From positions 920,232 through 984,231 of the forward strand of contig NKIU01000001.1 of NCBI GenBank assembly GCA_002256245.1: DNA of 64,000 nucleotides, given 5' to 3'. Below are positions 38,804 through 48,629 of the stretch, in pieces (position 1 is the first letter of the stretch; each line of letters begins with the position of its first letter). A model generated the notes under the pieces. That model did no database searches. It saw only the letters and a list, made by a program, of their open reading frames with translations, and was not told where the DNA came from. The stretch is from Pseudorhodobacter sp. PARRP1 (GTDB taxonomy: Bacteria; Pseudomonadota; Alphaproteobacteria; Rhodobacterales; Rhodobacteraceae). The translations under genes were made by a program, and so were the position numbers.

Positions 38804-39556
38804 TCAGCGCAGGAAATCGGCCAGCACCGCATTGAAAATCAGCGGCTTTTCCAGATGCACGTTATGCGCCGCATTGGGCACCACCGCCAGATCGGCACCG
38901 GGGATGCCGCGCCACAACGCCTCGGGTTGTGACCATGCGTAGGATTTGTCATGGCTGCCCCACAGCACCAGCGTCGGGCATGTGATCTCGGCCAGATTGC
39001 CGCGACCGTCCCAGTTTTCCCACGCGCGCAAGCTGGCAAGGGCAGCGGCAAGGCTTGGCTGCTGACCCAATTCTGCACACAAGGCAAAACCTTCAGCCGC
39101 CTCACCTCGCAAAAACCACGTCGCCGCAATCCTTCGCGCCGTCGCCGCCACACCGTCAGCCAACAGCCGCGCGCGCGAGGTGGCAATCGTCTCAAACCGC
39201 CCCGGCAACACCCCCAGCGGCCCGGTGCCATACAGCACCAACCTTCGCACCCGCTCTGGCGCAAGTTTGACCATCGCCTGCACGATCATCCCGCCCATTG
39301 AATGGCCCAGCAGATCAAACGTGTCGATCTTCAGATCGTCCAGCAGATCAAGCACCGATTGCGCATGGGCCTCGATGCTGTCCAGCGCGGACAGATGCGC
39401 GCTTGCGCCAAACCCCGCCAAATCCGGGCAGATCACATCAAACCTTGCGCTGAACTGGTCGATTTGCGCCGGCCAAACGGCGCTTGCCCCCAGATAGCCG
39501 TGCACGAAGACCAGTGCAGGCCCAGACCCGCTGCGCCTGAAAGACAGCTTTGCCAT
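38804..39556 (-). CDS. alpha/beta hydrolase
   Basis: A 250-residue alpha/beta-hydrolase with oxyanion segment VFVHGYLGASAVW, nucleophile serine in LLGHSMGGMIVQ, acid aspartate in LWGSHDKSYAW and catalytic histidine in NAAHNVHLEKP. It is the last gene of the leftward sulfonate operon, 13 nt after the exporter gene. An ester or lactone substrate is likely but unknown. It could release a sulfonate from an ester, or be a housekeeping passenger. Confidence 0.85.
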   Translation of the reverse strand: MAKLSFRRSGSGPALVFVHGYLGASAVWPAQIDQFSARFDVICPDLAGFGASAHLSALDSIEAHAQSVLDLLDDLKIDTFDLLGHSMGGMIVQAMVKLAPERVRRLVLYGTGPLGVLPGRFETIATSRARLLADGVAATARRIAATWFLRGEAAEGFALCAELGQQPSLAAALASLRAWENWDGRGNLAEITCPTLVLWGSHDKSYAWSQPEALWRGIPGADLAVVPNAAHNVHLEKPLIFNAVLADFLR

Positions 39557-39569
39557 GCCACCCTCTGCC

Positions 39570-40610
39570 TTACATCAGAAAAACATGCGCGAACACAATC
39601 GCTTGCCCCAACAGCCACAGCGTATCCATGGCGATCAGCAGCAGCCCCTTCAATCCCGGCGCGAACAGCTTTTGCAACGAGGTTTTCACCCCCAGCGCCG
39701 AAATCGCAACCACCAGCAAGAAGCGCGAGGTATCGTTGACAAAGTTCAACAAAGCCTCTGGCAGAGGCACAAAATTGCGCAGGATCATCAGTGCGATAAA
39801 CGCCACCACAAACCACGGCAAGCCCTTGGCCCCGCCGGCTTCCTTGCGGAAAATCACCGCAACCGCCAGCAAGACAATCGGCAGCAAAGCAACCCGCAGT
39901 AGTTTCGTGAATGTGGCGATGTCGCCTGCGGTTTCGCTGACGGAATAGCCCGCCCCCACCACCTGCGCGACATCATGGATCGTCGCCCCGATCATGTAGC
40001 CGATTTCCACATCGGCAAGCCCCAGATAGCGAAACAGCACCGGATAGACGATCATCGCCAAGGTTGACATCGCGGTGACGCCGACCACGGTCAGTAAAAC
40101 GTCCTCTTCTTGCAGAAAGCGTTTGGGCAACACCGCCGCAATCGCCATCGCGGCTGATGCCCCACAGATCGCGACAGAGCCGCCCGTCAGCAGCCCGAAC
40201 GCCGTGCTGCGGCCAAACAACCGCGCCAGAATCACGCCGCCGATCAGCGTGGATACCAGCAGCCCCACGACACCGATGATCGGCGTCACCCCCAGTTGCG
40301 AGACATCGGCAAAGGTCAATCGCAACCCCAGCAGGGCCACGCCACAGCGTAACAAGGTGCGGGCGCAGAACGAAATCCCCTCAGCGGTGCGCGGCGCGTC
40401 ATTGGTAAAGTTGAACGCCATGCCGATCAGCAGCGCGAACAACATCGCAGGTGCCGCGTAATGGTCGGCCAGAAAGCTTGAGGCCAGCGCGATGGTGGTG
40501 GCCAGAATAACCCCGGCACGTTGCGCCTCTACCCAATCCAAGCCGCGCCGCGACCACGGGCCCAGCCGTTGCGGCAAACCGGCCCCGGCGATGCGATCAG
40601 GCTTGGCCAT
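39570..40610 (-). CDS. YeiH/CuyZ-type (UPF0324, PF03601) putative sulfite/sulfate exporter
   Basis: A 346-residue protein with about ten membrane segments; conserved parts include FALLIGMAFNFTNDAPRTAEGISFCARTLLRCGVALLGLRL, GGSVAICGASAAMAIAAVLP and IHDVAQVVGAGYSVSE. In sulfonate-degrading Rhodobacteraceae, members of this family sit beside cysteate sulfo-lyase genes and are proposed to export sulfite. The same link holds here, six genes from cuyA in one operon. It overlaps the dehydrogenase gene by 14 bp. Confidence 0.85.
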   Translation of the reverse strand: MAKPDRIAGAGLPQRLGPWSRRGLDWVEAQRAGVILATTIALASSFLADHYAAPAMLFALLIGMAFNFTNDAPRTAEGISFCARTLLRCGVALLGLRLTFADVSQLGVTPIIGVVGLLVSTLIGGVILARLFGRSTAFGLLTGGSVAICGASAAMAIAAVLPKRFLQEEDVLLTVVGVTAMSTLAMIVYPVLFRYLGLADVEIGYMIGATIHDVAQVVGAGYSVSETAGDIATFTKLLRVALLPIVLLAVAVIFRKEAGGAKGLPWFVVAFIALMILRNFVPLPEALLNFVNDTSRFLLVVAISALGVKTSLQKLFAPGLKGLLLIAMDTLWLLGQAIVFAHVFLM

Positions 40611-41907
40611 CGGCGTGGCTTAGATCAAAGGTTTCGTTGGGAAAGAACTTGGCCAACCGGATATCAGCCGAACGTGCGTGGCCCTCCATCCCCTCCAGCC
40701 GTGAAATCCGCGCGGTGGCCTCGGCCAGCGGACGGGCACCATCACGCGTAGCGCGCTGCCATGTCACGGTTTTCATGAACTTATGCACCGACAGCCCTCC
40801 GGTATAGCGCGCAGCACCCGAGGTTGGCAGCACATGGTTTGGCCCCGAGGTTTTGTCGCCAAAGGCCACCGTTGTCTCTTCGCCCAGAAAAAGCGATCCG
40901 TAGGACTGCAAGCGTTGCAGCCACCAATCGAGGTTTCCGGCCTGAATATGCAGATGCTCCGGCGCGAACTGGTCGGAAACCTGCGCCATCCCCTCGGCAG
41001 AGCCGCACAGGATCACTTCGGCATAATCGCGCCATGCCGCTTGCGCGCTGGTGCGGTTCACTTCGGGCAAGGTGTCAATCAACTTGGGCACCAGCGCCAT
41101 GACCTGCTCGGCCAAAGCGCGATCCGAGGTGACCAGCCATACCGGAGAGTTGTAGCCATGCTCGGCCTGCCCCACCAGATCAGCCGCCACCATTTCGGGG
41201 TCTGCGGTCGCATCGGCCACCACCATGCTGTCAGTCGGGCCTGCGAACATATCAATGCCCACCTGACCGAACAAAATCCGCTTGGCCTCGGCCACATACT
41301 GATTGCCAGGGCCCACCAAGATATCAGCCTTGGGCAGCCCGAACAGCCCGTTGGCCATCGCGGCCACGCCCTGCACGCCCCCCATCGACAAGATCACATC
41401 CGCCCCGCACAGATCCATCGCATAAAGGATCGCGGGCGGTATCCCCACGCCGGGGCGCGGCGGCGAGCAGGCGGCGATATGCGGAACTCCTGCCACTTTG
41501 GCCGTGGTGATCGTCATGATGGCGCTGGCGACGTGGCTATAGCGCCCGCCCGGCACATAACAGCCCGCAGCGGAAACCGGGATCTGCTTTTGCCCCGCCA
41601 TCAATCCGGGAATGATTTCGATGGCAAAATCCGTCACCGTGCCGCGCTGAGCTTCGGCAAAGCGGCGCACGTTGTTATGGGCGAACTGGATATCCTTCTT
41701 GAGTTGCGCCGGAACCAAGGCCGCTGCCGCCGCCCGGTCTGCCGCCGACACCACAATATCGCCCGCCCATTTGTCCAGATCGCGCGCATAGGCCCGTGCC
41801 GTATCTTCCCCACCAGCAGCAATCTCAGCCAGCATATTGGCGACGACTTCGCGCACACTTTCCTGATCCGTCTCGGCAGTCCGAGCGGCTTTCTTCAGAT
41901 AAATCAT
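40597..41907 (-). CDS. HisD-family dehydrogenase, HpsN/sulfopropanediol dehydrogenase-like
   Basis: A 436-residue four-electron NAD-dependent alcohol dehydrogenase of the histidinol dehydrogenase family. The zinc ligands and catalytic residues are all visible: Q and H in GQAEHGYNS, E and H in FAPEHLHI, D in FGDKTSGPNHVLPTSG and H in LEGMEGHARSAD. It sits among sulfonate genes, not with histidine biosynthesis, so HpsN-type oxidation of 2,3-dihydroxypropanesulfonate, or of cysteinolate (a histidinol analogue), is more likely. The start at 41907 has GGAAAG. It is 16 nt downstream of the permease gene. Confidence 0.85.
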   Translation of the reverse strand: MIYLKKAARTAETDQESVREVVANMLAEIAAGGEDTARAYARDLDKWAGDIVVSAADRAAAAALVPAQLKKDIQFAHNNVRRFAEAQRGTVTDFAIEIIPGLMAGQKQIPVSAAGCYVPGGRYSHVASAIMTITTAKVAGVPHIAACSPPRPGVGIPPAILYAMDLCGADVILSMGGVQGVAAMANGLFGLPKADILVGPGNQYVAEAKRILFGQVGIDMFAGPTDSMVVADATADPEMVAADLVGQAEHGYNSPVWLVTSDRALAEQVMALVPKLIDTLPEVNRTSAQAAWRDYAEVILCGSAEGMAQVSDQFAPEHLHIQAGNLDWWLQRLQSYGSLFLGEETTVAFGDKTSGPNHVLPTSGAARYTGGLSVHKFMKTVTWQRATRDGARPLAEATARISRLEGMEGHARSADIRLAKFFPNETFDLSHADGQA

Positions 41908-41923
41908 AGTTTCAGCTTTCCGG

Positions 41924-42784
41924 TTACATACGGCCCTTCCAGGGCACCAAGCGGCGTTCGACAAAACGCATGAACAGATCAAAGCCAAAGGCGATGATTG
42001 CGATCACAAATATCCCCATGATCACGACGGGGGTTTGCAGGAACTGGCTGGCCGACAGCACCATGTAGCCAAGCCCCTTGGTCGAGGCGACCATTTCAGC
42101 GGCAACCAGAGTGGTCCAACCAAAGCCGATGCCAATGCGCATGGCAGTCAAGATTTCCGGCATGGCCGAGGGCATGATCACGTGCCGCATCACCTGCCAG
42201 CGCGTTGCGCCAAAGGAATAGGCTGCGTGTATCTGCTCTATCGCCGCTGATTTCACGCCAGAACGCGCGCCTAAGACCACCGGGGCAAACACCGACAAGA
42301 AGATCAGCAGCACTTTCGAGGTCTCGCCAATGCCAAACCAGATGATCATCAGCGGCAGGTAAGCGAGCGGCGGGATCGGTCGGTAAAACTCGATGGGCGG
42401 ATCAAAAAGGCCGCGCATCACCGGGCTCATCCCCATGGCAAGGCCCAAGGGAAGGCCGATCACGCAGGCGAGAATGAAGGCCCCGAACACGCGCAGCGTT
42501 GATATCCAGACATGCTCCAGAAACGGCGTGCCGGTGAAGCCATCGTTCCAGACCGTGACAAACTTGGCCAGGATGGCCGCAGGCGAGGGCACGAACAGCG
42601 GCTTGACCCAGCCCATGAAGGTGACGAGCCACCAGACAAAGAAAAAGAGCGCAATCGAACACGCCGACAGCCAAAGCGTGTTGCCCTGCCCCGGCACGCC
42701 GTAAATCTCGCCGGGTTTGGTGGGCTTGGCACGGGCCAGACGGGCGAACAGACCCTCGGCTTTTTGCGGCGATGGTTGGGTCAT
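41924..42784 (-). CDS. TauC/SsuC-like ABC transporter permease
   Basis: A 286-residue permease with six hydrophobic segments, the RPIPPLAYLPLMIIWFGIGETSKVLLIFL stretch and the EAA-type loop AAYSFGATRWQVMRHVIMPSAMPEI. This is the taurine/sulfonate/nitrate permease branch. It overlaps the ATPase gene by 4 bp and precedes the HisD-like gene, so it would deliver the substrate of that enzyme. The substrate is inferred to be a C2-C3 sulfonate. Confidence 0.9.
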   Translation of the reverse strand: MTQPSPQKAEGLFARLARAKPTKPGEIYGVPGQGNTLWLSACSIALFFFVWWLVTFMGWVKPLFVPSPAAILAKFVTVWNDGFTGTPFLEHVWISTLRVFGAFILACVIGLPLGLAMGMSPVMRGLFDPPIEFYRPIPPLAYLPLMIIWFGIGETSKVLLIFLSVFAPVVLGARSGVKSAAIEQIHAAYSFGATRWQVMRHVIMPSAMPEILTAMRIGIGFGWTTLVAAEMVASTKGLGYMVLSASQFLQTPVVIMGIFVIAIIAFGFDLFMRFVERRLVPWKGRM

Positions 42785-43569
42785 GCTGCGGCCTCCTCAT
42801 CGGCGAAAATGATCTTCAGCACGTCTTCGCGCAGCTTGATGAACTCGGGCGAGGCTTTGACCTGCCGCGCAGGCGTGCCGCCAAGAAACTGGCGCGAGAA
42901 TGGCAGATCGAACAGATGGGTGATCCGACCGGGGCGCGGTGACATCACCACCAATTTGGTGCCCATGAACAACGCCTCTTCCACGCTGTGGGTGATGAAG
43001 AACACCGATTTATGAGTGTCATTCCAGATGTTCAGGATAAGCTCTTGCGCCTTCTCACGGGTCAGCGCGTCCAAGGCCCCCAAGGGTTCGTCCATCAGCA
43101 AAACACGCGGGTCGCAGGTCAGCGCACGGGCGATGCCAACGCGCTGCTGCATACCGCCCGACAGCTTGTAAACCGGCGATTGCTGAAAGCCGTCAAGGCC
43201 CAGCATGCCGAGAAATTTGTTGGCAATCTGGTCACGCTCGACCTTGCCAATACCTTGAATTTGCAAGCCGAAGGCGACGTTATCCAACACGTTCAACCAA
43301 GGCAACAGCGCGTGTTTTTGAAACACCACGGCGCGATCTGCACCGGGACCAGCGACTTGGCGGCCATCCAGCACCAGCCGCCCCGATGTCGGCGACAGAA
43401 AGCCTGCGATCAGGTTCAGCAACGTCGATTTACCGCAGCCCGAAGCGCCCAGCGCCACCACAAATTCTTCGTCCTCAATCGTCAGATTTATCCGGCTTAA
43501 CGCCTCGACCGGCGGGCGACGGTCTGCGGCTGGATAAACGACAGACACGTCCTCGATATGCAATCCCAC
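42781..43569 (-). CDS. TauB/SsuB-like ABC transporter ATPase
   Basis: A 262-residue ATPase with Walker A GASGCGKST (residues 41-49), a Q-loop VVFQKHALLPW, the signature LSGGMQQRVGIARAL, Walker B VLLMDEPLGALD and the H-loop FITHSVEEA. FQKHALLPWLNVLDNVAFGL is typical of the taurine/nitrate subfamily. It is coupled by 4 bp to the permease and follows the binding-protein gene after a strong hairpin. Confidence 0.93.
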   Translation of the reverse strand: MGLHIEDVSVVYPAADRRPPVEALSRINLTIEDEEFVVALGASGCGKSTLLNLIAGFLSPTSGRLVLDGRQVAGPGADRAVVFQKHALLPWLNVLDNVAFGLQIQGIGKVERDQIANKFLGMLGLDGFQQSPVYKLSGGMQQRVGIARALTCDPRVLLMDEPLGALDALTREKAQELILNIWNDTHKSVFFITHSVEEALFMGTKLVVMSPRPGRITHLFDLPFSRQFLGGTPARQVKASPEFIKLREDVLKIIFADEEAAA

Positions 43570-43596
43570 TTGGCGTGCTCCTGGTGCAGTAAGGGG

Positions 43597-43625
43597 GGCA
43601 GCCCGAACACTAGGCTCGGGCTGCC
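43597..43625. terminator. intercistronic hairpin between binding protein and ATPase genes
   Basis: Perfect 10-bp arms GGCAGCCCGA (43597-43606) and TCGGGCTGCC (43616-43625) surround a 9-nt loop in the 67-nt gap. No U-tract follows. Such structures usually stabilise the binding-protein mRNA and reduce read-through to the less-needed membrane components. Confidence 0.6.
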
Positions 43626-43636
43626 GCGAGACTTAC

Positions 43637-44626
43637 TTACTTCGTGGCTTCTGCCGCGATTTCGGTGTTCACGAACGGCGAGTAATCATCCACCACCGTG
43701 TCAATCCGGCCCGCCGCTTTCAGGAAATCTGCGGTCGATTTCATCACCTTGGCCGCATTGCCCAGCCACTTCTCGCCGACCTGATCGGCCAAAGGCACAA
43801 ACGTGTAGCCTTTCAGGATTTCAGGGATCTGATCCGCGCCTGCACCGGTCAGATCGGCAATCGCCTTAACGCTGGCATTATCCGCCGTCCACGCGGCGGG
43901 GTCCGCGAGATAGGCTTGGTTGGCGGCATCCATCGTCTTGGCGAAGGCCACCATTTCGGCCTGATGTTCTGCGGCAAATTCCTTGTTCACAACCCACGCG
44001 TTGAAGGTGGGATAGCCCCATTCCGCCGTCTGGTTCGCGCCCACAATCCGCGTGCCCGTTTGCAGGATTTGCGTCTGCACCGGCGGCCAGATGAAGGCCG
44101 CGTCAATCGTGCCCTGATCCCAGGCGGCTGCGATCTGATCTGGCGGCATCGACATGATCGTCACATCCGCCTCGGTCAGCCCGGCATGCGCAATCGCCCC
44201 CATCAGCGAATAATGCGCGGTCGATCCCACCGGCACCGCAACGCGCTTGCCCTTCAGATCTTCAACCGAGGCAATGCCCGACCCGTTATGCGCGATCAGG
44301 CTTTCGGATTCGCCGATGGCATAAGACAGCATGAACATCTGCAAATCGACGCCCTGGCTTGCCGCAATCGCGAGCGGAGACGATCCCAACTCGGCCACTT
44401 TCACATCGCCCGAGGCCATCGCCGCGATCACATCGGTGCCGGAATCGAACACCCGCCATTCAATCGTCCAGCCGGTTGCCTTTTCAAACGCATCGGTGGC
44501 GCGCACGGCGTTCATCGGGGTGGGGTCGCTGAAGGTGGCGATCACCATGGTTTCAGCCATGGCCGAGACCGCCGACAGCGCCAGCGCCGCCGTCCCCATC
44601 ATCATCGTCTTAAGCAGTTTGGTCAT
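43637..44626 (-). CDS. TauA-like ABC transporter substrate-binding protein
   Basis: A 329-residue periplasmic binding protein with signal peptide MTKLLKTMMMGTAALALSAVSAMA. The mature part (TMVIATFSDPTPMNAVRATDAFEKATG, ELGSSPLAIAASQGVDLQMFM, GKRVAVPVGSTAHYSLMGAI, DAAFIWPPVQTQIL) follows the NMT1/TauA-type fold, and its spacing resembles taurine-binding proteins. No taurine:pyruvate aminotransferase or sulfoacetaldehyde acetyltransferase lies in this window, so another sulfonate is as likely as taurine. Confidence 0.9.
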   Translation of the reverse strand: MTKLLKTMMMGTAALALSAVSAMAETMVIATFSDPTPMNAVRATDAFEKATGWTIEWRVFDSGTDVIAAMASGDVKVAELGSSPLAIAASQGVDLQMFMLSYAIGESESLIAHNGSGIASVEDLKGKRVAVPVGSTAHYSLMGAIAHAGLTEADVTIMSMPPDQIAAAWDQGTIDAAFIWPPVQTQILQTGTRIVGANQTAEWGYPTFNAWVVNKEFAAEHQAEMVAFAKTMDAANQAYLADPAAWTADNASVKAIADLTGAGADQIPEILKGYTFVPLADQVGEKWLGNAAKVMKSTADFLKAAGRIDTVVDDYSPFVNTEIAAEATK

Positions 44627-44685
44627 TTTGATACCTCTGTTGTCGGTTGCACGGGATTTACCTCGTATTTTATTGGATCAGGCCG

Positions 44686-45405
44686 TTATGGCGCGGCCTT
44701 GATCTGTCGTTCTTCAGGTTGCATCGAAAACCAGATGATCTCTGCAACCAAGCGGTCAAGCGTGTCAAAGGCGGTCACTTCTGGCGAAACTGCCTCGGGA
44801 ATAAGCGAAAACTCGGTGCAGGCGATCATCTGCACCGCAGCACCGCGCTGGTGGAATTCGGTGGAGGCCGCAAGCAGGGTCTGGCGGGCCTCTGGTTGCG
44901 GGCCTTGCGCCTTGATCTGCCGGATCGCGGCCAGCATGGCGGTTTCATCCTGCGCGTAAAGCGCGCTCAGGCCGTGGTCTGCCAGCATCGCCTCAAACAG
45001 CCCAACCTTGCGCACGGCGGGCGAGGCAAGCACGCCCACCACTCCACCGCGAGGGGCAAGGCTTGCGGCATGGGCCACCGACAGCGCAATCATATCCAGC
45101 AAAGGCACCCCAACCGCCGCACGGATTGCGCCCGCATAATGGTGTGCAGTGTTGCACGGCATCGCCAAGGCCTGCGCCCCACCCGCAACCAAGCGCCGCG
45201 CCATATCGGCCAGAACCGGGCCGGGGTCGGCTCCGGTGCCCTCGATCAGATGCGCGATCCGGGATGGCACTTGTGGGTTTTGATCGACAATCAGCGGGAT
45301 ATGATCGGCGTCATCGCGCGCCGTCACTCCGGCCAGCACCTTCTGCATGATCAGGATGGTGGCTTCCGGCCCCATGCCGCCCAGGATACCCACACGCCGC
45401 ATCAT
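44686..45405 (-). CDS. Asp/Glu-racemase family protein, candidate cysteate racemase
   Basis: A 239-residue PLP-independent amino-acid racemase. It begins MMRRVGILGGMGPEAT, and the two catalytic cysteines are present in MPCNTAHHY and ACTEFSLIPEA. Family members invert aspartate or glutamate. Because cysteate is aspartate with a sulfonate in place of the side-chain carboxylate, and cuyA is in the same operon, D-/L-cysteate interconversion is a reasonable inference. The start at 45405 has AGGTG; the frame to 45612 is a shadow of the DegT gene. Confidence 0.85.
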   Translation of the reverse strand: MMRRVGILGGMGPEATILIMQKVLAGVTARDDADHIPLIVDQNPQVPSRIAHLIEGTGADPGPVLADMARRLVAGGAQALAMPCNTAHHYAGAIRAAVGVPLLDMIALSVAHAASLAPRGGVVGVLASPAVRKVGLFEAMLADHGLSALYAQDETAMLAAIRQIKAQGPQPEARQTLLAASTEFHQRGAAVQMIACTEFSLIPEAVSPEVTAFDTLDRLVAEIIWFSMQPEERQIKAAP

Positions 45406-46610
45406 GCCCGCACCTGTTCGCCAAGGCCCGCAACCGCATCCAGAATATGATCGGCCAACAGCGCGCAATCGTCCAGACTGAAGGTCAGCGGCAAGCGCAT
45501 GTCGAACAATCCGGCCAGAATAGCGTCTGTGGCGGGCAAATCCTGCTGCGCCACATAGCGCCAACTGTGATGGTCCGAGGTGAAGCCTACAGGCTGGCTT
45601 GCGCCAAACCATTTCACCTCAACCCCAACAGCGGCCAGTCGCGCCACGAACGTCGCCGCATCCGCCTGCGTCATCCCCGGCAAGCAGAACTGGATCGACG
45701 ATCCGACATAGCTTTCCGCCGCAGGCCTGCGCGGCAGACGGATGGCAGGCGCGCGGGCCAGGCGGTTCGCCACCAGATCATGCCGCGCATTCCACGCCAC
45801 AATGCTGTCGGGCAAAGTGCGCAACTGCGGGCGCAGCAACGCCGCGCGCAGATTGTCCATCCGGGCAGAGGTGTTGGGCGTCTCAAGCCGGATGCCATCA
45901 TAAACCTCGGGCGCAGGCCCCGCGCCATGCCGATTATACAGCATGTAAGACCCCGACAGCATCGTCGCCCGCGCCATGAACGCCGCATCGTCCGAGGTCA
46001 GCAAGCCCCCCTCACCCGAGTTGATGTGCTTATAGGTCTGCGTGCTGAAACACCCCGCCAGACCAAAGCTGCCCGAACGTTTGCCGTTCCAGCTTGCCCC
46101 CATCGTATGGGCGCAATCCTCGATCACAGTCAGGTTCAGATCAGCGGCCATCTGCACCAAACGATCCATGTCGCACAAATGCCCGCGCATATGCGACAGC
46201 AGCAGATAGCGCGCGCCCGAATTGCGCGCTTTGCCGGCCAGATCATCCAGATCAAGCACCAGATCGGGCGTAATCTCGACCAAAACCGCACGCGCGCCCA
46301 CCGCCGCAATCGCGCCCGGCACCGGGGCCAGCGTAAATCCGTTGGTCAGCACCAGATCGCCCGGCAGCACGCCCGACGCACGCAGTGCAATTTGCATCGC
46401 TTGCCCGCCCGAGGCCACCGCCAGACAATAGGCTGCCCCCTGCCACAGCGCATAGTCGCGTTCCAGCGCCATCACCTCGCTGGGTTGATCGCCCACCACA
46501 TTATAGCGGTGCAGCCGCCCCGATCGCATCACCGCCACAGCCGCCTCGATTCCCGCCTCGGGGATCGGGGGCTGCTGGGTAAAGCTGCGGGAAAACTGCG
46601 GGCGCGGCAT
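45402..46610 (-). CDS. DegT/DnrJ/EryC1/StrS-family PLP aminotransferase
   Basis: A 402-residue fold-type I aminotransferase. The Schiff-base lysine is in CFSTQTYKHINSGEGGLL, the DegT signature; VIEDCAHTMGASWNGKRSG holds the PLP-contacting Asp region. These enzymes usually act on keto-sugars and related ketones, which is unusual in a sulfonate operon. It may transaminate sulfopyruvate or 3-hydroxy-2-oxopropanesulfonate. It is 3 nt downstream of the cysteate sulfo-lyase gene and overlaps the racemase gene start by 4 nt. Confidence 0.88.
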   Translation of the reverse strand: MPRPQFSRSFTQQPPIPEAGIEAAVAVMRSGRLHRYNVVGDQPSEVMALERDYALWQGAAYCLAVASGGQAMQIALRASGVLPGDLVLTNGFTLAPVPGAIAAVGARAVLVEITPDLVLDLDDLAGKARNSGARYLLLSHMRGHLCDMDRLVQMAADLNLTVIEDCAHTMGASWNGKRSGSFGLAGCFSTQTYKHINSGEGGLLTSDDAAFMARATMLSGSYMLYNRHGAGPAPEVYDGIRLETPNTSARMDNLRAALLRPQLRTLPDSIVAWNARHDLVANRLARAPAIRLPRRPAAESYVGSSIQFCLPGMTQADAATFVARLAAVGVEVKWFGASQPVGFTSDHHSWRYVAQQDLPATDAILAGLFDMRLPLTFSLDDCALLADHILDAVAGLGEQVRA

Positions 46611-46613
46611 GGA

Positions 46614-47636
46614 TCAGGCCACCACCAAGGCCTTGTTGCCATCGGCAAACACCGCGTCATAGCCAAACAGCGCAGCCGAGCCGCCAGTGTGCAGAAACAC
46701 CACCCGCTCACCCTTCTTGAACTTGCCCTTGCGGCAGTAATCAATCAGGCCAGCAGCCCCTTTGCCAGAATAAACCGGGTCCAGCAGGATGCCTTCCAGT
46801 TGTGCAAACATGCGGATCGCCTCCAGCGTATCATCGCGCGGTATACCGTAACCTGCGCCAACATAGCTGCTGTCGGCCACCACATCACCGCGCGCCACGA
46901 CACCGGGACACCCCAGCTTTTCCGCCGTTTTCAGCGCCAGCGCGAACACGTTTTCTTCCTGCTTTTCCTTTGGCGCGCGCACCCCGATGCCGGTCAGCGG
47001 GATACCCGCATTGATCGCCTTCAGCCCGGTGATCAGCCCGGCTTGCGTGCCCGCAGACCCCGTTGCCGTCACCAGATGATCAATCACCAGACTGCGGTCA
47101 TTGGCCTGGCCCACCAACTCGAACGCGCAGTTGACGTAGCCCAGCGCGCCCGTCGCGTTCGACCCGCCACCCGGAATCAGATAAACCTTGCGACCCTCAC
47201 CACGCAGCCGCTCGGCGACCATTTCCATCTCGGCCTGCATGTCCTTGCCGCCCGCGCGTTTAGAGGTGGTCGCGCCATGCAGATGATCCAGCAACACATT
47301 GCCGTTGCCGTTGTAATTGGCGTCATTCGACCCCGTGCGGTCTTCCAGCAGGATATGACAACCCATCCCCAACTTGGCCGCAAAAGCCGCCGTCTGTCGC
47401 GCATGGTTCGATTGCGTAGCCCCTTGCGTCATCACCGTATCCGCGCCCATCGCCTGCGCCTCGGCCATCAGAAACTCCAGCTTGCGGGTCTTGTTGCCAC
47501 CCGTCGAAAGACCCGTGCAGTCATCGCGCTTGATCCAGATTTCCGGCCCGCCCAGCTCTTTCGACAAGCGATCCAGTTTTTCCAAAGGCGTCGGAAGATG
47601 CGCCAGATGAACGCGGGGAAAACGGGCGAGATGCAT
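46614..47636 (-). CDS. cuyA: L-cysteate sulfo-lyase / D-cysteine desulfhydrase-family PLP enzyme
   Basis: A 340-residue fold-type II PLP enzyme of the ACC deaminase/D-cysteine desulfhydrase family. The lysine is in [17 protein letters not shown], followed by [15 protein letters not shown], and GSAGTQAG binds the phosphate. The N-terminus ([27 protein letters not shown]) resembles characterised CuyA of marine Rhodobacteraceae, which splits L-cysteate into pyruvate, ammonium and sulfite. The PF03601 exporter in the same operon supports that reading. D-cysteine desulfhydrase is the alternative. It is the first gene of the operon, divergent from a LysR gene. Confidence 0.8.
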
Positions 47637-47744: not shown

Positions 47745-48629
47745 ATGCGGCTGGAATGGTTGGAAGACATTTTGGCAATCGCCGAAACCGGGTCGTTCAG
47801 CGGCGCGGCAGAGCGGCGGCGGCTGACACAATCGGCCTTTTCGCGCCGCATCCGGCAGATCGAAGACTATGTCGGCGCGGAACTGTTTGACCGCGACCAC
47901 AAGCCGATCCGCCTGCAAGCCACCACTCTGGCGCAAAGCGATCAGATTCTGGCCTTGGCGGCGGGCTTGCGGCAACTGTTGGTCGATCTGCGCCGCGGCG
48001 AGCGGATGACCAGCAACAAGGTGGTGATTGCTTGCCAGCATTCGCTGACGGCGATGCGGATTCCGTCGATCCTGCAACAGCTTCCCAACCAGCACGACAG
48101 CATTCAGGTGCGGCTGCGCTCGGCCAATCTGGATGAATGCACCGGGCTGCTTTTGTCCCGGCAAGCCGACGTGGCCATCGTCTATCAGTTGCCCGAAGAA
48201 ACCAGCGATTTCAACGCGGATTTTCTGGAAATCATCACCATCGGCACCGACCGCCTGATCCCGGTGTTCAACGCAGCCTTTGCGCAGCTTGCACAAGGCA
48301 GCGGCGCCATCCCCTACATCGCCTACCCCCCCGATGTGTTTTTCGGCCGGGTGATGGCGCGCAAGATCGTGCCGTTTCTTGACGCCAGAATGCACCACGC
48401 GCCAAAGGTTGAAACCGCCCTGACGCTGGCTGCGGTGGAAATGGCGGTTGCGGGGGTCGGGGTGGCATGGGTGCCAGAATCGCTGGCACACAGCCGGATC
48501 GCCGCCGGTCAACTGGTGGCGCTGGACGCAGAGTTGCCTGCCTGCGATCTGCAAATCCGCGCGATGCGGTTGCAGGGCAATCCCAATCTGGCAGGCACCG
48601 CCTTTTGGACGCAACTGCTGCTGCTGTAA
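47745..48629 (+). CDS. LysR-family transcriptional regulator
   Basis: A 294-residue LTTR. The N-terminal HTH is in WLEDILAIAETGSFSGAAERRRLTQSAFSRRIRQIEDYVG, followed by the effector-binding domain (VVIACQHSLTAMRIPSILQQ onward). It is divergent from cuyA, with a 13-bp palindrome between, so it most likely activates the sulfonate operon with a sulfonate or pathway intermediate as co-inducer. The effector is inferred from position only. Confidence 0.9.
   Translation: MRLEWLEDILAIAETGSFSGAAERRRLTQSAFSRRIRQIEDYVGAELFDRDHKPIRLQATTLAQSDQILALAAGLRQLLVDLRRGERMTSNKVVIACQHSLTAMRIPSILQQLPNQHDSIQVRLRSANLDECTGLLLSRQADVAIVYQLPEETSDFNADFLEIITIGTDRLIPVFNAAFAQLAQGSGAIPYIAYPPDVFFGRVMARKIVPFLDARMHHAPKVETALTLAAVEMAVAGVGVAWVPESLAHSRIAAGQLVALDAELPACDLQIRAMRLQGNPNLAGTAFWTQLLLL

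Follow-up and report, generated by a model that had tools for sequence, protein, structure and literature searches.

An operon of Pseudorhodobacter sp. PARRP1 that pairs an HpsN-like dehydrogenase with cysteate racemase and sulfo-lyase genes and probably serves cysteinolate catabolism

The window analysed here is a 64,000-nucleotide stretch of the Pseudorhodobacter sp. PARRP1 genome (GenBank assembly GCA_002256245.1, contig NKIU01000001.1, positions 920,232 to 984,231), in which positions 38804-47636 hold nine genes on the minus strand, arranged as one compact leftward operon whose intergenic spacings range from -14 to +67 bases; on the plus strand, a divergent LysR gene begins at 47745. The original prediction, made from the letters alone, had described a sulfonate operon that looked built for D-cysteinolate or another chiral C3 aminosulfonate, and every gene on its list was found where it had been placed, on the minus strand. 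The features are as follows.

46614..47636, minus strand: CuyA, predicted D-cysteate sulfo-lyase dependent on pyridoxal phosphate (PLP) (NF052482, 548 bits; cut-off 450)
45402..46610, minus strand: DegT/DnrJ-type aminotransferase (PF01041, 169 bits; lysine in KHINSGEGG)
about 44686..45405, minus strand: CuyB, predicted cysteate racemase (NF052483, 275.6 bits; cut-off 190; C84, C196)
43637..44626, minus strand: TauA-like periplasmic binding protein (TIGR01729, 321.8 bits; cut-off 304.25)
42781..43569, minus strand: TauB-like ATPase (NF008421, 331.9 bits, below the cut-off of 357)
41924..42784, minus strand: TauC-like permease (NF007545, 311.4 bits, below the cut-off of 342)
about 40597..41907, minus strand: HpsN-like (HisD-fold) dehydrogenase, here HpsN', proposed cysteinolate dehydrogenase (67.5% identity to 8wwe)
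39570..40610, minus strand: membrane protein of family PF03601, proposed to export sulfite in a CuyZ-like role (205.5 bits)
38804..39556, minus strand: alpha/beta hydrolase (PF00561, 110 bits)
47745..48629, plus strand: LysR, proposed regulator (PF00126/PF03466)

The identical gene order is found again in other genera, which argues against a chance arrangement, and in many related loci CuyA is likewise flanked by a divergent LysR gene; the host genome measures 4.35 Mb, and HpsN' is 97% identical to its Cypionkella aquatica counterpart. CuyA and CuyB both exceed the curated cut-offs of their families, from which their activities are predicted, and both cysteines of the Asp/Glu-type racemase seen earlier in the sequence are in place. 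Since the match to the CuyB model does not begin until residue 74 of the listed frame, the gene likely starts at 45405 rather than at the mechanical open reading frame start of 45612, and HpsN' probably starts at the ATG near 41907 instead of the TTG at 41988. A tandem pair of adjacent CuyB-like genes, one over and one under the cut-off, occurs in another genome (G183:C1:1668114-1669511).

Among solved sequences, the nearest to HpsN' are the (R)-2,3-dihydroxypropane-1-sulfonate (DHPS) dehydrogenase 8wwe (67.5% identity) and HpsN of Cupriavidus pinatubonensis, CpHpsN (58.9%), both ahead of histidinol dehydrogenases, whereas the best-scoring HisD of its own genome, which is located elsewhere and reaches 558 bits against PF00815, is only 35.8% identical to it. 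The earlier assignment to the HisD family, with zinc and catalytic residues intact, holds as far as the fold and the residues are concerned, E318, H319, D352, H359, K353 and H126 (CpHpsN numbering) all being kept and the G-R-Y-A/S-H motif being present as GGRYSH, His126 included; the implied closeness to histidinol dehydrogenase does not hold, the protein being nearer to HpsN. The TIGR00069 hisD model scores HpsN' at 432 bits, over its cut-off of 243.8, and in NCBIfam (June 2026) only histidinol dehydrogenase models match it; a histidinol dehydrogenase function is rejected on account of the sulfonate motif, the low identity to the best-scoring HisD and the gene context.

In CpHpsN, His126 and Lys353 hold the sulfonate, which also coordinates zinc together with the C2 hydroxyl; in HisD, the substrate amino group occupies the zinc site that CpHpsN uses for the C2 hydroxyl, and the place of His126 is taken by no histidine but mostly by leucine (PMC11382572). 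His126 and Lys353 are conserved in all 63 CuyA/CuyB-linked sequences compared. Because the sulfonate, zinc and catalytic residues of CpHpsN are all kept, HpsN' fits, as judged from its sequence, C3 sulfonates that carry a primary alcohol and, at C2, a group able to bind zinc, a description that covers both DHPS and cysteinolate (2-amino-3-hydroxypropane-1-sulfonate). Elsewhere in the host genome (G000:C24:625379-628171), two head-to-head HisD-like genes encode proteins 44-47% identical to HpsN' that carry leucine at the His126 place and keep Lys353; a similar gene adjoins HpsO in locus L127.

Gene neighbourhoods were compared in two samples. The first was chosen by similarity to HpsN' and comprises the best 80 of at least 573 confirmed matches together with the window; within 8 kb, 31 of these 81 HpsN-like loci contain CuyA and/or CuyB without HpsP, 38 contain HpsP without CuyA or CuyB, 12 contain neither (some of them at contig ends) and none contains both. 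The typical CuyA/CuyB-linked layout is CuyA-(DegT)-CuyB-TauABC-HpsN and the typical HpsP-linked one LacI-TRAP-HpsN-HpsO-HpsP (TRAP, tripartite ATP-independent periplasmic transporter), often with SuyAB. In three Neomegalonema loci (L038, L049, L054), an HpsN-like gene of DHPS-type signature (see below) has DegT nearby, and CuyA, CuyB and HpsP were not found.

The second sample starts from CuyB: of 390 genomes from the order to which the window belongs, 82, with the host genome among them, encode a protein above the NF052483 cut-off. For the 81 other loci, stretches of up to 9.5 kb on each side were taken, shorter near contig ends; a tblastn search relocated CuyB, at the thresholds used, in all but two of the 82 loci, and these two (L194 and L197) were excluded, which leaves 80; neighbours were called at identity thresholds of 38-50%. 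CuyA lies near CuyB in 67 of the 80 loci, and an HpsN-like gene lies within 9 kb on the same strand in 38, so that the co-occurrence of racemase, HisD-like and cuyA genes for which the original prediction had suggested a search does extend to other genomes. HpsP, SuyA, SuyB, Ldh2 and the TRAP gene DctM were found in none of the 80 stretches, and HpsO in two, L127 (same strand, beyond other genes) and L182 (opposite strand). The exclusivity claimed here applies to the pairing of CuyB with HpsP and does not extend to CuyA by itself; genomes in which cuyA lies near hpsNOP have been reported (PMC11382572).

The link between the dehydrogenase and the racemase is close: in 30 of the 38 loci no more than 400 bases separate the HpsN-like gene from CuyA or CuyB, and nine of the loci pair it with CuyB in a stretch where no same-strand CuyA was found, a CuyA over the cut-off being encoded elsewhere in all nine genomes. 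A dehydrogenase gene coupled in this way to a cysteate racemase gene suggests that cysteate is what the enzyme produces. Furthermore, L014 and L118 contain bounded operons that run from a divergent LysR through CuyA-CuyB-TauABC-HpsN to an opposite-strand gene, which therefore leave no sulfolactate dehydrogenase or aminotransferase gene within them. A second HpsN-like gene, beside HpsP, is present in eight of the 38 genomes with a CuyB-linked copy, and each paralogue has its own partners, the HpsP-side loci carrying LacI in all eight cases and TRAP genes in seven; a ninth genome (G165) has a complete DHPS type and a CuyB-linked copy that is cut by a contig end.

The CuyB-linked proteins also form a branch of their own. 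In a careful tree of 106 sequences, a branch with 100/99 support separates 60 CuyA/CuyB-linked rows from 42 DHPS-type rows, 8wwe included, and from four exceptions on the DHPS side, namely two Martelella genes and one Limibaculum gene that is present in two collections and has a LysR gene between it and CuyA. Not included in this tree were 12 unlinked rows, the outgroup, CpHpsN, duplicates, up to nine near-copies and L125, whose sequence was too short. A quick tree of 129 rows is consistent with this, in that a single group of 62 rows (Shimodaira-Hasegawa-like approximate likelihood ratio test, 99) takes in every one of the 47 DHPS-type rows and four of the 67 linked rows. A first careful tree of 86 rows gave the window's group 99/96 support but contained no supported branch that joins the DHPS-type rows. 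The original proposal that a HisD-fold enzyme feeds cysteate to CuyA is thus strengthened by partners that are CuyB and CuyA and, in the CuyB sample, never HpsP, by the nine pairings with CuyB only and by a separate tree group.

A signature of five positions (Cp48, 165, 142, 336 and 381), picked on earlier sets, separates those selection sets of 63 and 47 sequences without error and was applied to 54 further genes. In genomes lacking CuyB over the cut-off, all 18 new genes are of the DHPS type (HpsP adjoins 15), and in CuyB-positive genomes 29 of 36 are of the DHPS type (27 with HpsP) and seven of the CuyB type (none with HpsP). A CuyB-type gene is accordingly present in 43 of 82 CuyB-positive genomes (36 linked plus seven new) and in none of 36 CuyB-lacking genomes, out of 308 such genomes (Fisher test, 2e-9, with relatedness ignored). 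The mere presence of an HpsN homologue proved a weak test, since one occurs in 18 of the 36 CuyB-lacking genomes and in 30 of 44 CuyB-positive genomes without a linked copy, mostly of the DHPS type.

The accessory genes are less uniform. The TauA-like protein passes TIGR01729, stays under NF008553 (270.5 bits; cut-off 490) and has the taurine-binding 6ssy as its best solved match. Among the 38 HpsN-linked CuyB loci, 30 have no labelled importer, seven have one of the Tau and one has one of the betaine type, and among the 42 loci without HpsN, 25 have none labelled, 11 have one of the betaine type (seven of them weak), five of the Glu/Asp type, a label run on one family representative, and one of the Tau type. 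The importers match the expected charges in part, the Glu/Asp type, suited to cysteate, being seen in loci without HpsN alone, but betaine-type importers are commoner without HpsN than with it, and importer type is suggestive at most as a test. In four loci (L132, L153, L165, L169), CuyA-DegT-CuyB is accompanied by an importer of the betaine type and HpsN is not nearby; these genomes have an HpsN of the DHPS type that adjoins HpsP at another site.

Of the CuyZ/YeiH-type exporter in the original prediction, the PF03601 family, which we take to be linked to CuyZ, is borne out, whereas the YeiH model TIGR00698 stays below its cut-off (142.8 bits against 232.6). To judge from its lysine, the DegT protein is apparently a genuine PLP aminotransferase, although none of the eight listed NCBIfam models reaches its cut-off, and its nearest solved sequences are 3-amino-5-hydroxybenzoic acid synthase and sugar/cyclitol aminotransferases. 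DegT is optional in related operons, occurring in 13 of the 80 CuyB loci, eight with HpsN and the others without; as cysteinolate and its ketone have both been detected in diatoms and coccolithophores (PMC11131964), one possibility is that it interconverts the two. The hydrolase is optional as well, its cluster adjoining the operon in L007, L008, L015, L034, L067 and L078.

What the comparisons establish is the identity of the genes, the structure of the operon, the association of this HpsN-like type with CuyA/CuyB rather than HpsP, and its separate branch. On this basis we propose that the operon probably serves the catabolism of the aminosulfonate cysteinolate, where the substrate, predicted from gene partnerships, its stereochemistry and all reactions are inferred. 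The TauABC-like ATP-binding cassette importer would take up zwitterionic cysteinolate, and the zinc-dependent HpsN' would oxidize its primary alcohol to the carboxylate, a four-electron step that consumes two NAD+ and yields cysteate. By our stereochemical reading, (R)-DHPS, (R)-cysteinolate and L-histidinol agree in handedness; oxidation of (R)-cysteinolate would yield (R)-cysteate, which is the L form, as expected from the handedness reported for HpsN. CuyB would then convert L- to D-cysteate, CuyA would cleave D-cysteate to pyruvate, sulfite and ammonia, the PF03601 protein would export the sulfite, and LysR would regulate the operon.

This order reverses the stereochemistry first suggested for the locus. 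CuyB interconverts L- and D-cysteate and CuyA prefers the D form (PMC11382572, citing J. Biol. Chem. 2024, 107371), and the NCBIfam name of the CuyA family is D-cysteate sulfo-lyase, so L-to-D racemization is likely. A racemase that turns D- into L-cysteate for CuyA, downstream of D-cysteinolate oxidation to D-cysteate, agrees with the annotation of Ruegeria pomeroyi CuyA as an L-cysteate sulfo-lyase (PMC4334477), but it runs against both the family name and the reported preference, and we consider it highly improbable. The proposed specificity for D-cysteinolate likewise finds no support; the R preference reported for HpsN, if kept, would direct the pathway from (R)-cysteinolate to L-cysteate.

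Several observations weigh against a cysteinolate operon. The known substrate-contact residues are identical in the CuyB-linked and DHPS types, so the sequence cannot tell an amine from a hydroxyl at C2, and CpHpsN, a DHPS enzyme, has three of the five CuyB-type signature states, which makes the signature a lineage marker rather than proven specificity. The Martelella loci L067 and L078 have the full CuyA-DegT-CuyB-TauABC-HpsN-hydrolase operon with an HpsN from the DHPS side, as though the original gene had been exchanged in situ, and these DHPS-state genes, together with CpHpsN, rule out the signature as proof of specificity. Moreover, 42 of the 80 CuyB loci have no HpsN-like gene nearby, taurine- and betaine-type importers occur beyond the HpsN-linked loci, and the host genome contains Xsc.

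The alternative of a DHPS operon would have HpsN' oxidize (R)-DHPS to (R)-sulfolactate, with L-cysteate for CuyB and CuyA then supplied by a sulfolactate dehydrogenase encoded away from the operon and by an aminotransferase, for which DegT is a candidate. All tested HpsN substrate contacts are kept, the amine could come via DegT, and a route with hpsNOP, slcD and cuyA has been described for Ruegeria pomeroyi and Roseovarius (PMC11382572). The genome content argues otherwise: besides its absence from the CuyB loci, HpsP of at least 60% identity is missing from 28 of the 38 genomes whose HpsN-like gene is linked to CuyB, and no HpsP was found at E 1e-50 in eight of nine genomes of named CuyB-linked loci, both Martelella included. 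In the host genome the best-scoring HpsP match is 30% and the sole SuyB match 31% identical, and no PF02615 (Ldh2-family) match was found, in a search for sulfolactate dehydrogenases that did not extend to SlcD and SlcC; open frames of L059 examined as possible SlcD gave no family match. With DegT near CuyB in eight of the 38 linked loci, no aminotransferase is conserved, and both the separate DHPS-type gene beside HpsP in eight genomes and the nine CuyB-only pairings count against this route, and we regard a DHPS operon as unlikely.

Another candidate substrate is an amino- or N-substituted C3 sulfonate alcohol, such as N-methylated or acylated cysteinolate, prepared for HpsN' by DegT, the hydrolase or a demethylase. 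A fused DAO plus GCV_T oxidoreductase resembling sarcosine/dimethylglycine demethylases, assigned by a Pfam run on L151 (4691-7201) and by clustering in the other loci, is encoded near CuyA-(DegT)-CuyB-HpsN genes in L127, L150, L151, L157 and L162, where N-methylated aminosulfonates may be the substrates; in the first four the clustered gene stands beside CuyA-DegT-CuyB-HpsN and in L162 beside HpsN and CuyA-CuyB. In L019, L027, L029 and L082, moreover, betaine-type binding proteins replace TauA (by Pfam on a relative in L132). The window's operon has no such demethylase, however, and the common core of CuyA, CuyB and HpsN' needs only cysteinolate; an N-substituted substrate is therefore quite improbable here.

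A cysteinolate operon as proposed would extend known systems. HpsN' has in common with CpHpsN and 8wwe the fold, the catalytic residues, the G-R-Y-A/S-H motif with His126 and Lys353, but it partners CuyA/CuyB, often with TauABC-like genes, rather than HpsO, HpsP, TRAP and SuyAB, and lies across the 100/99 branch from the alphaproteobacterial DHPS type. With HisD it shares the fold, the E318/H319 pair and the proposed amino-alcohol chemistry, His126 being present in HpsN' and not in HisD. Relative to CuyB/CuyA cysteate degradation, the core is the same and the window's operon adds the HpsN-like dehydrogenase and the taurine-like importer. As in the hpsKLMNOPQ-slcD to cuyA route of Ruegeria pomeroyi (PMC4334477, PMC11382572), an HpsN-type enzyme stands upstream of CuyA, but the window's operon has no HpsO, HpsP or SlcD, and the proposed route would need no sulfolactate. 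The published survey analysed further the 272 of 1000 HpsN homologues that have hpsO and hpsP nearby (PMC11382572) and, because both genes were required, the CuyB-linked type appears to lie outside it.

No cysteinolate catabolic gene turned up in the open-access literature searched, in which the word cysteinolate had no match (a 2022 review of cysteinolic acid by Burchill and Williams may discuss its degradation), and none is named in the accessible portions of PMC8703288, PMC9695272, PMC8027193, PMC11631085, PMC8319176 and PMC11131964. In some marine microalgae, cysteinolic acid can be more abundant than dimethylsulfoniopropionate; its levels are comparable to those of DHPS, and bacteria may consume it (PMC8703288). 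A tentative and rather doubtful extension of the proposed pathway is that a distinct HpsN-like subfamily of cysteinolate dehydrogenases could serve Rhodobacterales and scattered other Proteobacteria as the entry step for this abundant algal osmolyte, and that DegT, where present, could interconvert cysteinolate and 2-oxo-3-hydroxypropane-1-sulfonate, in which case the path through (R)-cysteinolate, L-cysteate and D-cysteate to pyruvate would be shared by both enantiomers and by the ketone. Having partners of its own and a branch to itself, the dehydrogenase type offers a testable marker. If the proposed function is correct, two functions may be pooled wherever HpsN homologues are counted in genomes or ocean surveys, and caution would be due where such genes pass the automatic hisD model TIGR00069.

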